DNA from: Anaerolineales bacterium
GTDB lineage: Bacteria; Chloroflexota; Anaerolineae; Anaerolineales; Villigracilaceae
Length of the DNA: 42,193 nucleotides
Assembly (NCBI GenBank): GCA_016789365.1
Contig: JAEURH010000019.1
Span: 308 to 42,500, forward strand
Direction: 5' to 3'
Part shown: in pieces, positions 1,073-7,519 of the stretch
How positions within the stretch are numbered: position 1 is the first letter of the stretch
How the letters are laid out: each line of letters begins with the position of its first letter
Notes under the pieces: model-generated
Told to the model about the DNA's origin: nothing
The model's database searches: none
Seen by the model: the letters and a program-made list of their open reading frames with translations, nothing else
Made by a program: the position numbers and the translations under genes

Positions 1073-1678
1073 ATGAGAAAAATTATTGTGCTTGAACATA
1101 TTTCTATGGATGGCGTTATCCAAGCCCCTGGTGGACCACAAGAAGACCCCAGTAATGGATTTGCTTATGGTGGTTGGATTAGTGCATATTCTGATAAAAA
1201 TATTGGTGAAGCATTAAGAAAGCAAATGAATTCACAATTTGATTTGTTATTGGGTCGCAAAACTTTTGACATTTGGGAACCGTTCTGGCCCCAACATGCG
1301 GATGCATGGCAGAATGTGATGACTGCCACAAAATACGTCGCTTCAAACACGCGCACAACGAGTGACTGGACCCCATCCGTGTTTTTAAGTGGAGACATCG
1401 CACAAAAAGTCTCTGAACTCAAAAAAGGAAATGGACCTGATTTACATGTGTGGGGAAGTGGTAATTTGCTTCAAACATTGATCAAGCATGATTTGGTGGA
1501 TACATTCTGGCTAATGATATATCCAGTGACATTAGGCAGTGGAAAAAAATTATTTGCGGATGGCACAATCCCCGCCGCGTTTAAGGTGACTGAAAGCATC
1601 GTCGGTTCAAGCGGTGTGATCGTGGTGAATTACGAACGTGCAGGTGGAATCAAAACTGGAAGTGCATCACCAGATTGA
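1073..1678 (+). CDS. DHFR-like protein (RibD C-terminal domain family)
   Basis: A 201-residue protein with the dihydrofolate-reductase fold as found in the RibD C-terminal/YyaP-YwjB family. It starts with the strand-plus-MDG pattern ([14 protein letters not shown], residues 3-16). Later come a [15 protein letters not shown] segment (about 59-73), the glycine pair in [11 protein letters not shown] (about 126-136) and [13 protein letters not shown] (about 149-161), all typical of these NADPH-binding reductases. The ATG at 1073 follows AAGGAG at 1060-1065. These proteins are common stand-alone accessory genes with no proven substrate; folate reduction should not be assumed. The family call is secure, the function is not. 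Confidence 0.88.
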
Positions 1679-1710
1679 AGTTAAGAAAGAGGCGAAGTCA
1701 GAACGTTAAT

Positions 1711-1917
1711 CTACTCACTTTTGTATTCTAGAATATCGCCCGGCTGACAATCTAATGCTTTACAGATTGCTTCTAGTGTTGAAAAACGAATCGCTTTTGC
1801 TTTTCCATTTTTCAAGATGGAAAGATTCGCCATGGTAATGCCAACTTTTTCAGTCAGTTCAGTGACGCTCATTTTTCGCTTTGCTAACATGACATCAATA
1901 TTGATTATGATCATCAT
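1711..1917 (-). CDS. Small HTH regulator, YozG/XRE-like
   Basis: A 68-residue Cro/CI-type helix-turn-helix protein. The HTH runs through SVTELTEKVGITMANLSILK (about residues 17-36), followed by the FSTLEAICKALDCQPGDIL segment typical of the YozG group. The start follows AAGGTGG, which overlaps the stop codon of the DUF2975 gene six bases upstream, so the two are translationally linked. HTH proteins of this type are regularly encoded next to DUF2975 membrane proteins and are thought to regulate the pair. An adjacent second Met leaves a one-codon uncertainty in the start. Confidence 0.88.
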   Translation of the reverse strand: MMIIINIDVMLAKRKMSVTELTEKVGITMANLSILKNGKAKAIRFSTLEAICKALDCQPGDILEYKSE

Positions 1918-1923
1918 GCCACC

Positions 1924-2400
1924 TTAGACCGTTAAATCATTTTCTGATTTTATGTTGATGGCATTTTGGAGAAGTCTTTGAAAAACAGCGGCGGCAGTTG
2001 CAATCACGATAGAAGCGAAAGTAATCACAATGCTCAGGGCAGTGACACCTGCTGAGTCTTCACCTTTGATAAATAAATTGATGTATAAGATTCCTAGAAG
2101 GATGAAGCCACTGAATGCGAGTGCACAATATTTTATATTCTTGACAGCATCGACTGAGTATTGAGAAAAAACTTTATTGCTATCCACATAGCCCAAAAGT
2201 TTAATGGCTTGATATAAGGCAACAAAAAATGGGATTGAACCGATGAAAGCATAAATAATCATCGGGTCTTTATAAATGCTGATTAAATCTAAATTCGCGG
2301 CTCTGCCTTCCAGTTGCGGAAACCAAACCAGACATGTAAAAGCTACACCTGCAATCAGACAAATGACAACTTTCAAGAATAGTGTTGAACCTTTTTTCAT
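1924..2400 (-). CDS. DUF2975 family membrane protein
   Basis: A 158-residue protein with four predicted membrane helices: about residues 9-27, 49-69, 92-111 and 121-143. Length, topology and partner gene match DUF2975, a bacterial membrane family of unknown function. It is first in a two-gene operon with the small HTH regulator. The start is set by GAGGT (2408-2412) 7 nt upstream. A near-consensus promoter lies at 2440-2468. Confidence 0.85.
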   Translation of the reverse strand: MKKGSTLFLKVVICLIAGVAFTCLVWFPQLEGRAANLDLISIYKDPMIIYAFIGSIPFFVALYQAIKLLGYVDSNKVFSQYSVDAVKNIKYCALAFSGFILLGILYINLFIKGEDSAGVTALSIVITFASIVIATAAAVFQRLLQNAINIKSENDLTV

Positions 2401-2577: not shown

Positions 2578-3645
2578 TCAATCTTCGTTCATAAACTTTA
2601 AATACATTCTATTAACCGATTTTGCAGTTTCAAGTTGTTGTTCTATTAAATTTCTTTTCTCTAAACTGATATTGTTATATTTAGCACTTTTATTAATAAA
2701 ATATATTTGAGAATTAAGAACCTGCCTACCAATCATATCAATTAGTTCAGGTAAATTCCATATATTTTTAGGAATCCAAGACTTGGATGGTTCAGTAGGA
2801 TACTCTCTTATTTTGTTGTTTCCTGCAATTAAAACTTTCCCTATTCCTTTTTCAAAATTTTTTGATATTGACTTTGTATAATCATTGTTATATAAATATT
2901 CAATATTACTTTTTATATTATGGGAATAGATTGATTGATAAATCTCTGAACATTTCTTGTCATAGGCTATTTTTATAAGTGGATATAAAATTCGATTTCT
3001 CCCTCCTTCAACAACAAATTGTATTTCCTGACTATCTGTATAATATGCTTCTTTTGAGTAAGGAAGTCCTAGATTTTTAGAGATTAAAAAATCTGTTGAC
3101 AAATTGAAAAAACAAAATTGATTTATTCTAAGATTGAAGCAAGTAGGAAGATATTGAAAGGCGGGTGTATTAGCACCCGCAAAATTAATCCCTAATTGTT
3201 TAGAGTCGGATTTGTAAATAAAAATTGCTCTGTCTTTAATACCAATTCTTTTTGAGATATGATAATTCGGATAAACATCTGATAAGTTTTTTTGTAAATA
3301 ATTATATCCAAGCCATAAACCTACTCGAATTTTATCTAACCAGTCTAAGAAAACTGAAAAATCTTCGTTGTTTAATTCTTCTTCATTCAATAATTTTTCG
3401 ACAATGTTTTTTGCTTTTGTTTCAAAGTCTGAATATTTTATATTGCAATCTTCACATGCTGGAAATTGAAATTGATCAAATGCAAATTTTCTAAACTCTA
3501 AATTTTGTGTTTTTGAGTTCCAAATAGGGCCAAAATCTGCCGTGCGATTAGAGTCACCAGTAAGCTCAATAAGCCACTTTGGAATTATGTGCTCATTGTT
3601 CTTGTTTTTAGGTTTATTTCCACAAAATACACAAAACTTTTCCAT
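2578..3645 (-). CDS. HNH endonuclease-like protein
   Basis: A 355-residue protein with an N-terminal HNH-type zinc/ββα-metal module: a CxxC knuckle (C5, C8), then EHIIPKWL (E18-H19, the HNH His region), then CEDCN (C64, C67, N68). The remaining 280 residues match nothing I recognise. Sampled lines of this gene are 22-33% G+C against about 43% in the gene downstream, so recent acquisition is likely. It stands alone between a palindromic repeat and a simple-sequence tract, with no toxin partner, methylase or integrase beside it. It could be a defence nuclease or a mobile-element remnant. The nuclease fold is well supported, the role is not. Confidence 0.75.
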   Translation of the reverse strand: MEKFCVFCGNKPKNKNNEHIIPKWLIELTGDSNRTADFGPIWNSKTQNLEFRKFAFDQFQFPACEDCNIKYSDFETKAKNIVEKLLNEEELNNEDFSVFLDWLDKIRVGLWLGYNYLQKNLSDVYPNYHISKRIGIKDRAIFIYKSDSKQLGINFAGANTPAFQYLPTCFNLRINQFCFFNLSTDFLISKNLGLPYSKEAYYTDSQEIQFVVEGGRNRILYPLIKIAYDKKCSEIYQSIYSHNIKSNIEYLYNNDYTKSISKNFEKGIGKVLIAGNNKIREYPTEPSKSWIPKNIWNLPELIDMIGRQVLNSQIYFINKSAKYNNISLEKRNLIEQQLETAKSVNRMYLKFMNED

Positions 3646-5067: not shown

Positions 5068-5718
5068 TTATTTTTTAATTTTCTCTATTCTTTCAGCCAA
5101 CACTTTCAATTTGCCCCATTCGCCCTGTACAGCATAAATCATCGCCAAGGCTTCCAACCAACGGATGTCACACTTTGGGTTTTGTGCCAAACGCTCAAAC
5201 AACTGCGTAGATTGTGAATCCGTGCGCCCTTCTTTTAGATATTCATTCGCCAACTCTTCCAACGAAACAGTTTTCTCAAGATGCACTTGATTCGACTGCG
5301 CGATTTTTTGTCGCTTCATTTTCACGTTTTCAACTACTTTTTTGATAGACGCTTCTATTTCTTCAATCGTAAATGGTTTTGCCAAAAAATCATTTGCGCC
5401 AATCGCTTCTGCCTTTTGAACCATAACCGCATCTTTTTCACCAGAGATAAAAATACAACCTGTGCCGGGGAAACTATGCACAATATGTTTGAAAGCCGTC
5501 AAACCGTCCATTTCTGGCATGTTGATATCCAGAATAACAATATCCGGGCGTTGTTCTTCAGTCATTTCTACGGCTTGTTTGCCGTTCGATGCAATCGCCA
5601 CCACTTCGACATACTCAATTTCAGACAGCATCAAGCGCGTATTGCGCCGCGTCTCTTGCACATCATCGGCGATGAGAATCCGCAATTTATTTTTTCTGAA
5701 GTTTTCGGCTGGGTTCAT
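5068..5718 (-). CDS. Response regulator with non-DNA-binding C-terminus
   Basis: A 216-residue protein: a CheY-like receiver (about residues 11-132) plus a short helical tail. The acidic pocket is D18/D19, the phospho-acceptor D64 (VILDINMPEMDG), the switch Ser S92 and the conserved Lys K114-Pro. The tail (about 165-216) contains a TPR-like helix pair, WLEALAMIYAVQGEWGKL, and no helix-turn-helix, so output is probably protein-protein contact rather than transcription. No kinase is adjacent, so the phospho-donor may be one of the histidine kinases at 26228-33063 or elsewhere. A -10-like TATACT lies 22 nt upstream (5741-5746). Confidence 0.9.
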   Translation of the reverse strand: MNPAENFRKNKLRILIADDVQETRRNTRLMLSEIEYVEVVAIASNGKQAVEMTEEQRPDIVILDINMPEMDGLTAFKHIVHSFPGTGCIFISGEKDAVMVQKAEAIGANDFLAKPFTIEEIEASIKKVVENVKMKRQKIAQSNQVHLEKTVSLEELANEYLKEGRTDSQSTQLFERLAQNPKCDIRWLEALAMIYAVQGEWGKLKVLAERIEKIKK

Positions 5719-5785
5719 TGAGGTTTACCTTACGCCTCTTAGTATAACGCAAGCCTGTTTTAATGCGTTGAGTTTACCCTCGCGC

Positions 5786-5814
5786 TTGACACCATATTTT
5801 TTGAGGTGTATGAT
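5786..5814 (+). promoter_or_regulatory. Near-perfect sigma-70 promoter driving the structured RNA
   Basis: A perfect TTGACA (5786-5791), an exact 17-bp spacer and TATGAT (5809-5814, five of six). Predicted transcription starts at about 5821, five bases before the first helix of the RNA candidate. No plus-strand open reading frame follows, so the promoter is not for a protein. Confidence 0.8.
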
Positions 5815-5820
5815 GAATAG

Positions 5821-5918
5821 TAAGTAACCTGGTGTAGTCGCGTGAAAACGCGGGTTGGGTTTCAGGTGATGAAAGTAAGCCTGTATAAAAACAACCCCAA
5901 CTAGCCAGGTTCTTTTAT
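5821..5918 (+). ncRNA. Candidate small structured RNA facing the DUF3800 gene
   Basis: About 95 nt that folds by eye into a closed three-way junction. P1 pairs AACCTGG (5826-5832) with CCAGGTT (5905-5911). P2 is CGCGT-GAAA-ACGCG (5839-5852), a helix capped by a GAAA tetraloop. P3 pairs GTTGGG (5854-5859) with CCCAAC (5896-5901) and encloses P4, CAGG/CCTG (5863-5866, 5880-5883). A U-rich run (TCTTTTATTT, 5911-5920) follows P1 directly. A consensus promoter sits at the right distance upstream, and the GAAA loop exists only on this strand. The 3' end meets the stop codon of the convergent DUF3800 gene. Comparative-genomics work has named several RNA motif classes after DUF3800 neighbours; I cannot tell whether this is one of them. 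Confidence 0.65.
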
Positions 5919-6506
5919 TTAATCGGGGTAATGAATTACCTTTACCATACTAGAGCGAATCGCAGAAGTATCATTGCGAATAAAACCTGCAAGCATATCT
6001 GCAATCTGTAAACCATCATTTCGACTGGCAGATACAGCCTTGATAGCACGCAGAAAAACTTGCTGACGGAGTGCTTGTGATAACGTTGTGCGCAATGTAT
6101 TCTTAAATGACAATTGTTCTTTTTCTCCGTCATAATACAAAGTTGAGTTTTGTAATAATTCAAAAGGTAAATTGACAATACAATGTGTAATCAAATCTGC
6201 AATAATTTGCTCCCCTCTTTTTTCACGCATCGTGACAGAAAAGCGTTGTTTATCAGCACGCAGAACAACTACCGCAGGAATCTCTAATTCATTGTGAATA
6301 AAATTTCTAAACTCTTCTCGAATATGCCGATTTGTCTTTGCAAAATGAAATTCATAATCTTCTGGCAGAGACAATTTAAAGCGTAAGCCATTGAGACTTA
6401 GTTCCTCATCTGTCATAAGTGTTGCAATCACTAATAATTCCGAAGAGCCTTGTCTAAATTTAAAGCCTGGGTCTCCTGACCAATCTATATAAATGCGAAT
6501 TGTCAT
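5919..6506 (-). CDS. DUF3800 family protein (RNase H-like fold predicted)
   Basis: A 195-residue DUF3800 protein. The N-terminal signature IYIDWSGDPG (D8, S10, G11, D12) is the family's (Y/F)xDESG motif with Trp in place of Glu. EFHF is at 52-55 and the C-terminal DGLQIADMLAGF (164-175, with D170) is the usual closing motif. These acidic residues fit a metal-dependent nuclease-like centre, but activity is unproven in the family. The ATG overlaps the stop codon of the flippase-like gene by 4 bp (ATGA), so translation is coupled. The 3' end abuts a structured RNA candidate on the opposite strand. Possible roles are defence, RNA processing or a mobile-element function; none is established. Confidence 0.85.
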   Translation of the reverse strand: MTIRIYIDWSGDPGFKFRQGSSELLVIATLMTDEELSLNGLRFKLSLPEDYEFHFAKTNRHIREEFRNFIHNELEIPAVVVLRADKQRFSVTMREKRGEQIIADLITHCIVNLPFELLQNSTLYYDGEKEQLSFKNTLRTTLSQALRQQVFLRAIKAVSASRNDGLQIADMLAGFIRNDTSAIRSSMVKVIHYPD

Positions 6507-7519
6507 TCGTTTTTCTCTACCTCCCCTCTCAAATCATCACTCCACTTGATTCCTTCTCTGGCTAAATAATACGCACCAAGGAGAGTAATTGGAAGCCAAA
6601 GCGCGACGTGTAAAGTCAATGTATATCCCGCCGCAGTGGCTTGACTGACTCCATAAGCAGTTAACACTGCAATGCCGGGCGCATCAAATGTGCCAATATA
6701 ACCCGGCGCAGATGGAATGGTGGTTGCCAAATTGACAATGCCATTCATCAACATCAATGCAAAGAATGAGACTTGAAAATCAAAGGCGTGCATCACGAAC
6801 CAATATTTGCCAGTCTCTAACAGCCAGATGAATGTTGAGGTCACAAAAACCATTAACACGTTAAGTGGGGAGCGGAGGGAAGCGAGTCCATCTAAAAAGC
6901 GATTCATCATGCGAATGATTCTTTGATGAAATCGTTGTGGAGTTAATCTTTCAATAAACCATAATCCAAGTTTCGCAGTCACTTGTGGAAACATGGCGGC
7001 GAGTAAAAAAATAATCAATGCGCCAATAAAAACGCCAGTGCCGATAATTGCCACTTGTTGAATATTGCCCACAAAACCAGAAGCACTGGTTAATTTTGCC
7101 AGTTCAGATAAATTTACAAACACAAATGCCAACATCACCACGCCGTCAAAAATTCTTTCAACGATAATCGTCGCTAACGAAGCAGAGACAGGCACACCTT
7201 CTTTTCGTTTGAGAATTACAGCGCGTAATACTTCACCTGCGCGGGCGGGATAAATATTATTTCCCATGTAACCAATCGTCGTAATTGGAAACATTGTTTT
7301 GGTTGGAATTTCTTTAATTGGTTTGAGTAAATAATGCCAACGCCAAGCACGAATCCATACACCGATAAAATACACGCCGATTGCAGGGAGTAGCCAAATA
7401 AAGTTCGCTTTTTGAACTGCTTGCCAAAATTCATCGAGTTTTAGCCCACGTAAAGCGAGCCAGATAAATAAAATACTAATGAAAACACCGAGCCAGAATT
7501 GCCATTTTTTAATTTGCAT
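6503..7519 (-). CDS. Flippase-like / lysylphosphatidylglycerol-synthase TM-domain protein
   Basis: A 338-residue integral membrane protein of the UPF0104/AglD/LPG-synthase N-terminal family, with about eight hydrophobic helices starting at residue 9. Diagnostic segments are RAWRWHYLLKP (about 57-67), YPARAGEVLRAVIL (about 95-108) and the C-terminal IPSAPGYIGTFDAPG (about 267-281). Family members move or modify polar lipids, and this one lacks the cytosolic aminoacyl-transferase half of MprF. It is the first gene of a two-gene operon with DUF3800. A TAAAAT box at 7528-7533 lies 8 nt before the start and there is no Shine-Dalgarno, so the mRNA is probably almost leaderless. Confidence 0.87.
   Translation of the reverse strand: MQIKKWQFWLGVFISILFIWLALRGLKLDEFWQAVQKANFIWLLPAIGVYFIGVWIRAWRWHYLLKPIKEIPTKTMFPITTIGYMGNNIYPARAGEVLRAVILKRKEGVPVSASLATIIVERIFDGVVMLAFVFVNLSELAKLTSASGFVGNIQQVAIIGTGVFIGALIIFLLAAMFPQVTAKLGLWFIERLTPQRFHQRIIRMMNRFLDGLASLRSPLNVLMVFVTSTFIWLLETGKYWFVMHAFDFQVSFFALMLMNGIVNLATTIPSAPGYIGTFDAPGIAVLTAYGVSQATAAGYTLTLHVALWLPITLLGAYYLAREGIKWSDDLRGEVEKNE

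Follow-up and report, generated by a model that had tools for sequence, protein, structure and literature searches.

In type III toxin-antitoxin systems the RNA is encoded upstream of the toxin gene and in the same direction, usually in the form of tandem repeats. RNase HII, the other point of reference for the locus described here, uses the D and the E of its DE motif, and its active site is DEDD. A 2017 paper reportedly named DUF3800 motifs, and Rfam holds several DUF3800-linked RNA families for which no function was found in the literature searched. Excerpts of PMC10910872 predict an RNase H fold with a catalytic rearrangement for DUF3800 and note an earlier association with ncRNA; in excerpts of the same paper and of PMC12669027 DUF3800 proteins appear as accessories at some CRISPR loci, and DUF3800 is also named in excerpts of PMC11701678 and PMC7657543.

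We analysed a window, meaning the whole stretch of 42,193 nt from Anaerolineales bacterium GCA_016789365.1 (contig JAEURH010000019.1, forward strand 308 to 42,500; coordinates below are window positions), in which a plus-strand unit is set between a response-regulator gene (5068-5718, minus strand) and a DUF3800 gene (5919-6506, minus strand). The features are these:

5761..6521, strand not applicable: stretch holding the whole module plus the final codons of the flippase gene upstream; two close relatives lack it, edges approximate.
5786..5814, plus strand: sigma-70-type promoter of the RNA, TTGACA-17-TATGAT; 11/12 match, predicted start at about 5821.
5826..5911, plus strand: structured RNA body, a three-way junction P1/P2/P3 with the inner helix P4 in the P3 arm, from the fold and from covariation over nine loci; covariance-model match at 5827-5910.
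5912..5920, plus strand: U-rich run CTTTTATTT 3' of the closing helix, a likely intrinsic terminator judged by its sequence and by a T-run that recurs in nine loci.
5919..6506, minus strand: DUF3800 protein of 195 aa with the variant motif DWSGD; Pfam PF12686 at E 2.6e-7, RNase HII-like predicted fold.

The promoter, the closed three-way junction with its named helices, and the U-rich run meeting the DUF3800 stop codon had been read from this DNA in an earlier note, and each was present. The closing helix P1 pairs AACCTGG (5826-5832) with CCAGGTT (5905-5911); the arms are a GAAA-capped CGCGT/ACGCG helix and a GTTGGG/CCCAAC helix enclosing CAGG/CCTG; and the U-run overlaps the stop codon at 5919-5921. 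In single-sequence folds the RNA alone (5825-5912) had a z of -4.39, with none of 200 shuffles equally stable, and the longer piece 5821-5930 had a z of -3.08, with 1 of 200 shuffles equally stable. The earlier description of the gap as free of open reading frames stood for the most part; the exception is a 121-aa plus-strand frame (5462-5827), mostly antisense to the response-regulator gene, which stops where the RNA begins and was taken as spurious. Promoter-like sites within 5600-6600 occurred at a chance number (3 vs 2.7 expected), the RNA promoter being the top scorer, and comparison between loci was therefore needed. The terminator scan, limited to loops of 3-8, did not call the closing helix and called the P2 hairpin instead (1 vs 0.8 expected). 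Elsewhere in the window, positions 2578-3645 (minus strand) encode a 355-aa protein with an N-terminal Cys-His pattern that is HNH-like by eye and with no Pfam match.

The RNA class was found in nine Chloroflexota loci by DNA and covariance-model searches. Among the 101 genomes searched at the DNA level, 58 had matches at E<=1, almost all of them short; five (the window's own, G053, G051, G063 and G041; E 7e-71 to 5e-6) were accepted as real because each adjoins a DUF3800 gene and has the same fold. The covariance model built from these five loci detected the RNA in 5 of the 400 genomes that represent the order, the window's own included, with G301 new and G041 absent from the matches, and 6 of 396 genomes of the class, with G473, G587 and G423 new; the four loci outside model building (G301, G473, G587 and G423) scored 91.5, 80.8, 76.6 and 69.1 bits. 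Six loci came from a pattern scan of genome contigs, all matched by coordinates or sequence to genomes already in the set and labelled Chloroflexi, two of them more narrowly (Anaerolineales; Anaerolinea thermophila). No copy of the RNA class was found in viral contigs by pattern scan, or in phages and plasmids by blastn at E<=0.01.

Standard pairs made up 98.6% of the 207 pair cells over the nine loci, and both-sided changes occurred in 11 of 23 pairs, spread over all four helices, in an alignment that was fitted to the covariance model and so is biased towards structure. In the control, 0 of 500 shuffles reached four of the five measures, and sliding the partners abolished the signal; the fifth measure, further pair types, was not unusual (20 vs 18.0 in shuffles, reached by 65 of 500). 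With the initial MAFFT alignment, which held five loci, the figures were 97.4% standard pairs (2/500 shuffles) and 5 double-changed pairs (5/500). The best promoter within 90 nt upstream scored 10-11/12 with a spacing of 16-18 nt in 9/9 loci, this step being run without a shuffled control. From the -10 box to the closing helix the distance was 9-12 nt in five loci and 28-33 nt, with an extra hairpin, in the other four, and a T-run followed the closing helix on its 3' side in all nine. The reality of the RNA was decided by this comparison, since nine loci share the helices, the promoter and the U-run; the earlier note had staked the element in part on conservation and covariation of its helices, and that claim withstood the check.

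The conserved, covarying RNA stands next to DUF3800 genes: the DUF3800 frame ends convergently against it in 8/9 loci (the G041 copy is cut to 67 codons by the contig end), and the ninth, L072 in G587, has a DUF3800 stub of which only about the first 20 codons are recognisable. The proposed link to DUF3800 was strengthened further by the protein tree, on which the RNA class tracks one clade. For this tree of 43 proteins we chose the rows ourselves (7 partners of the new RNA class, 29 of DUF3800-IX and 7 other; the G041 fragment and near-copies omitted), and the seven new-class partners group with L010 in a clade supported at 98/99. With all 43 rows the new RNA class required 2 changes on the tree (shuffles averaged 6.7, and none of 500 went as low), owing to the placement of L010 beside the group, and 1 change once the seven other rows were omitted; a single branch set the new group apart in 62% of bootstrap trees, and the IX partners required 3 changes. 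The positions of L010 and L008 are unsure because of their long branches. L010 itself (G062) has a DW-type DUF3800 gene (1429-2046, minus strand) opposite another promoter-led element, about 200 nt by eye, with no Rfam match.

The motif near the N-terminal start of the protein reads DW[SA]GD in the new-class partners, mostly DE[SA]GD in the IX partners and DDSGD in three viral ones, and the invariant columns over 15 aligned proteins include D8, K86, D126, Q167 and D170. Between the window protein (G000) and that of G053, pN was 0.116 and pS 0.746, with synonymous sites saturated; judged from these differences the protein is under purifying selection. An AlphaFold2 model made from 5 sequences had a pLDDT of 87.7 and a pTM of 0.87, and with this model Foldseek returned RNase HII as best match (2dff, E 4.5e-6; 1eke, E 1.2e-4). 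A sequence search of the PDB with the protein gave one chance match only (E 1), and the profile alignment to RNase HII was weak (probability 3.8%, P 0.011), placing IDWSGD on GIDEAGRG. The DEDD set of RNase HII is incomplete in the clade, where the residue after D8 is W, the equivalence of positions being taken from Foldseek and the profile alignment. Catalysis may have been lost in the DW clade, since the acidic residue beside the first Asp is replaced by Trp.

The earlier note had pointed to Rfam, and to its DUF3800-type families in particular, as a possible home for the RNA; this was not what we found. The Rfam 15 scan of the window gave no family at gathering score, and the DUF3800-IX model (RF02968; threshold 36.8 bits) gave no match to the window RNA at gathering or at E<=10. 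Seven weak Rfam matches around the RNA (E<=10; microRNA, snoRNA and NsiR1 families) were dismissed as chance, the best being mir-1662 with E 0.017 and 23.8 bits vs a cut-off of 85. Conversely, the new covariance model gave no match at E<=5 to the IX loci. Since the topology is like that of IX, yet the IX model misses the window RNA and the new model the IX loci, the window RNA is filed, from these sequence comparisons, as a new sibling class of DUF3800 RNAs and not as a member of IX.

DUF3800-IX itself is frequent in the same setting. Of 35 DUF3800 places found, 5 are of the new class and 30 are others; among the 27 of these 30 that were scanned (all except G062:C214, G062:C399 and G041:C381, with L029, a repeat of L002, uncounted), 26 carry a DUF3800-IX RNA above gathering score at the same convergent place, the exception being L010, and G041:C381 likewise carries one. 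Of the seven DUF3800 loci in viral contigs, five face a DUF3800-IX RNA convergently, and two pairs among these five may be near-copies because coordinates and score are identical. In a phylum-wide sample, 19 DUF3800 loci (of 31 places listed) had no Rfam match at E<=0.1, which means that not every DUF3800 gene is paired with a known RNA class; L139, L140 and L151 of this sample are IX-like by eye. A DUF3800-I search over 21 relatives gave no match, and the control genomes gave none either. Two loci carry two RNAs each. In L026 (G006), DUF3800-III at 393-505 and DUF3800-IX at 1353-1433 (plus strand) stand in tandem, each with its own convergent DUF3800 gene. In L072, the new RNA adjoins a DUF3800-IX-like RNA (1172-1258 and 1343-1425, minus strand), the latter at 31 bits and hence sub-gathering, with one DUF3800 stub beside both.

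We examined convergent pairing across the genus by scoring the convergent strand in the 3' flanks of all 56 DUF3800 hits in 57 genomes. A promoter of at least 9/12 together with a fold z of -2 or lower was found for 38/56 DUF3800 genes vs 2/54 control frames, and at a promoter threshold of 10/12 the counts were 27/56 vs 0/54; L228, with a flank too short to score, was counted as a miss. As controls we took, from every locus in L099-L128 (flippase loci) and L040-L064 that had one (54 of 55), the longest frame between stops that reached 180 aa; some of these frames are perhaps not real genes, and their composition and context are unmatched. By hand-labelled class the 56 genes comprised 29 IX, 3 new, 6 DUF3800-III, 1 DUF3800-VIII and 17 without a known class, 13 of the latter having been put to Rfam (all but L221, L242, L256 and L268). 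A T-run at the stop codon was present in 3/3 new, 6/6 III, 1/1 VIII, 17/29 IX and 6/17 other genes, and in 13/54 controls. Seven of the 17 classless genes (L219, L224, L229, L232, L250, L252 and L254) pass at 9/12 and z -2, L248 was kept by eye alone (z -0.59), and nine have no convincing element. The seven passing loci and L248 carry convergent candidate RNAs of several shapes with no Rfam match, L219 and L224 sharing the same fold. The convergent layout is common among the DUF3800 genes of the genus.

The module is present or absent as a unit. In a blastn comparison with 29 further flippase loci from relatives (L100-L128), the module part of the window had no match; two of these loci, in the close relatives G004 and G011, align closely on both flanks and have about 20 bp in place of the window's approximately 760 (5761-6521). 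It lies between flippase and response-regulator genes in the window, between a response-regulator-like match and an FAD oxidase gene in G051, and between flippase and FAD oxidase genes in G053, G063 and G423. We also considered whether the module had inserted into an AAA-TPR gene in L072 and rejected this, the relatives' copies of that gene ending at the same place. Among 30 IX RNAs of the genus, 25 adjoin a DUF3800 hit and L176 runs off its contig; L185 and L190 have no gene detectable by tblastn (L190 has by eye a possible short C-terminal remnant), L188 has a gene fragment, and L187 a frameshifted gene in two frames. The RNA can thus outlive the gene, a pattern that fits RNA loss being worse than protein loss, with small numbers (five cases) and with IX-group membership judged partly by the RNA itself.

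An RNA-protein system is plausible from these comparisons, and the reading that we favour, and hold to be rather probable, is a two-part module in which a self-promoted RNA binds and controls its cognate nuclease-fold DUF3800 protein. An RNA of about 95 nt, self-promoted and self-terminated, would fold into the three-way junction and work in trans as a partner specific to the protein whose gene meets it tail-to-tail; most likely it would bind this RNase HII-like protein and hold or direct its nuclease-like activity, much as an RNA antitoxin or an RNP scaffold would. Conservation, covariation, promoter- and terminator-like signals, gene pairing, co-segregation of the RNA class with a protein clade, and purifying selection all argue for this module, within which transcription, physical binding, the direction of control and any nuclease activity are what we infer. 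Counted against it are the 17 of 56 genus genes without a known or new RNA class, the case of L010, which shares the DW motif yet faces a different, longer element, and the T-run found in only 17/29 IX genes.

Other explanations would give the same arrangement a different meaning. The convergence of RNA and gene, which touch at the stop codon, and the fact that by eye no T-run terminator of the DUF3800 gene is seen on the minus strand at the window junction, would suit an antisense regulator that mainly pairs with the DUF3800 mRNA or causes transcription collision, the mRNA reading through its antisense strand; we regard this as unlikely, since the coding overlap is a few bases only and compensatory changes have been kept although such pairing requires no conserved fold. 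Alternatively, the RNA could be a scaffold or activator of the protein in a process beyond self-control, e.g., DNA repair or phage defence. The RNase HII-like fold, a weak match to the PADLOC candidate-defence model PDC-M04A (E 0.0011) and the accessory role at some CRISPR loci described in excerpts of PMC10910872 and PMC12669027 speak for it; its sporadic occurrence, in 5/400 genomes of the order including the window's own, speaks against a core role, and the genes around it in the window code for a response regulator, an FAD oxidase and a flippase-like protein. We judge this slightly less likely than antisense regulation. Least likely of the three is that the module is a small mobile element whose protein is an RNA-directed nuclease or integrase and whose RNA loops choose the DNA. 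That the module is present or absent as a unit and occupies differing junctions within a single gene block among relatives, together with the RNase H-like fold, could be read in that way; however, the longest word shared by the RNA and its own flanks averaged 9.1 vs 9.5 with the flanks of other loci (8/9 loci), and by eye no target duplication was seen at the G004 and G011 junctions, nor was a spacer-like segment noticed.

Taken as a two-part module, the locus is a compact pair that unites strong covariation and a transcription unit defined by its signals with a protein clade that segregates along with the RNA class and a specific substitution in a motif resembling an active site; in this genus DUF3800 genes are commonly paired tail-to-tail in this way. 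RNA binding and control of the protein become directly testable, with no more than a 195-aa protein and an RNA of about 95 nt needed. A wider reading is possible, and we offer it tentatively, with clearly less conviction than the module itself: DUF3800 genes could be the protein half of a broad family of RNA-antitoxin-like or RNP modules, each an RNase HII-fold protein tail-to-tail with a self-promoted structured RNA, with one RNA class per protein clade and the RNA being required if the protein is to be tolerated or to operate. The window would then hold a new class with an altered nuclease motif (E to W), which may mark a shift from cleavage to binding.

In comparison with known systems, RNase HII is the best fold match of the predicted DUF3800 structure; unlike RNase HII, the window protein has Trp in place of the Glu of the DE motif, where the two are aligned. 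ToxIN-like type III toxin-antitoxin systems, treated in excerpts of PMC8040213, likewise join a structured RNA to a nuclease-type protein; in contrast to their layout, the window RNA is convergent and single-copy and has its own promoter-like site. A cis-regulatory leader or riboswitch would precede a gene on its own strand, whereas here the gene ahead of the RNA is on the other strand. DUF3800-III (RF02962) and DUF3800-VIII (RF03075) occupy the same convergent place in the genus, 6 times and once, the former differing from the window RNA in sequence and fold and the latter in sequence. Closest is DUF3800-IX, which by eye shares the long closing helix, an unpaired J12, two arms one base apart, UA before the closing strand and the U-run; it is tail-to-tail with DUF3800, with a convergent promoter of at least 9/12 in 25/29 IX genes of the genus, and its loci by eye have a 5' hairpin, as do 4/9 loci of the new class. 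Unlike DUF3800-IX, the new class has a conserved P3 arm holding an inner helix, and a partner protein with DW[SA]GD.
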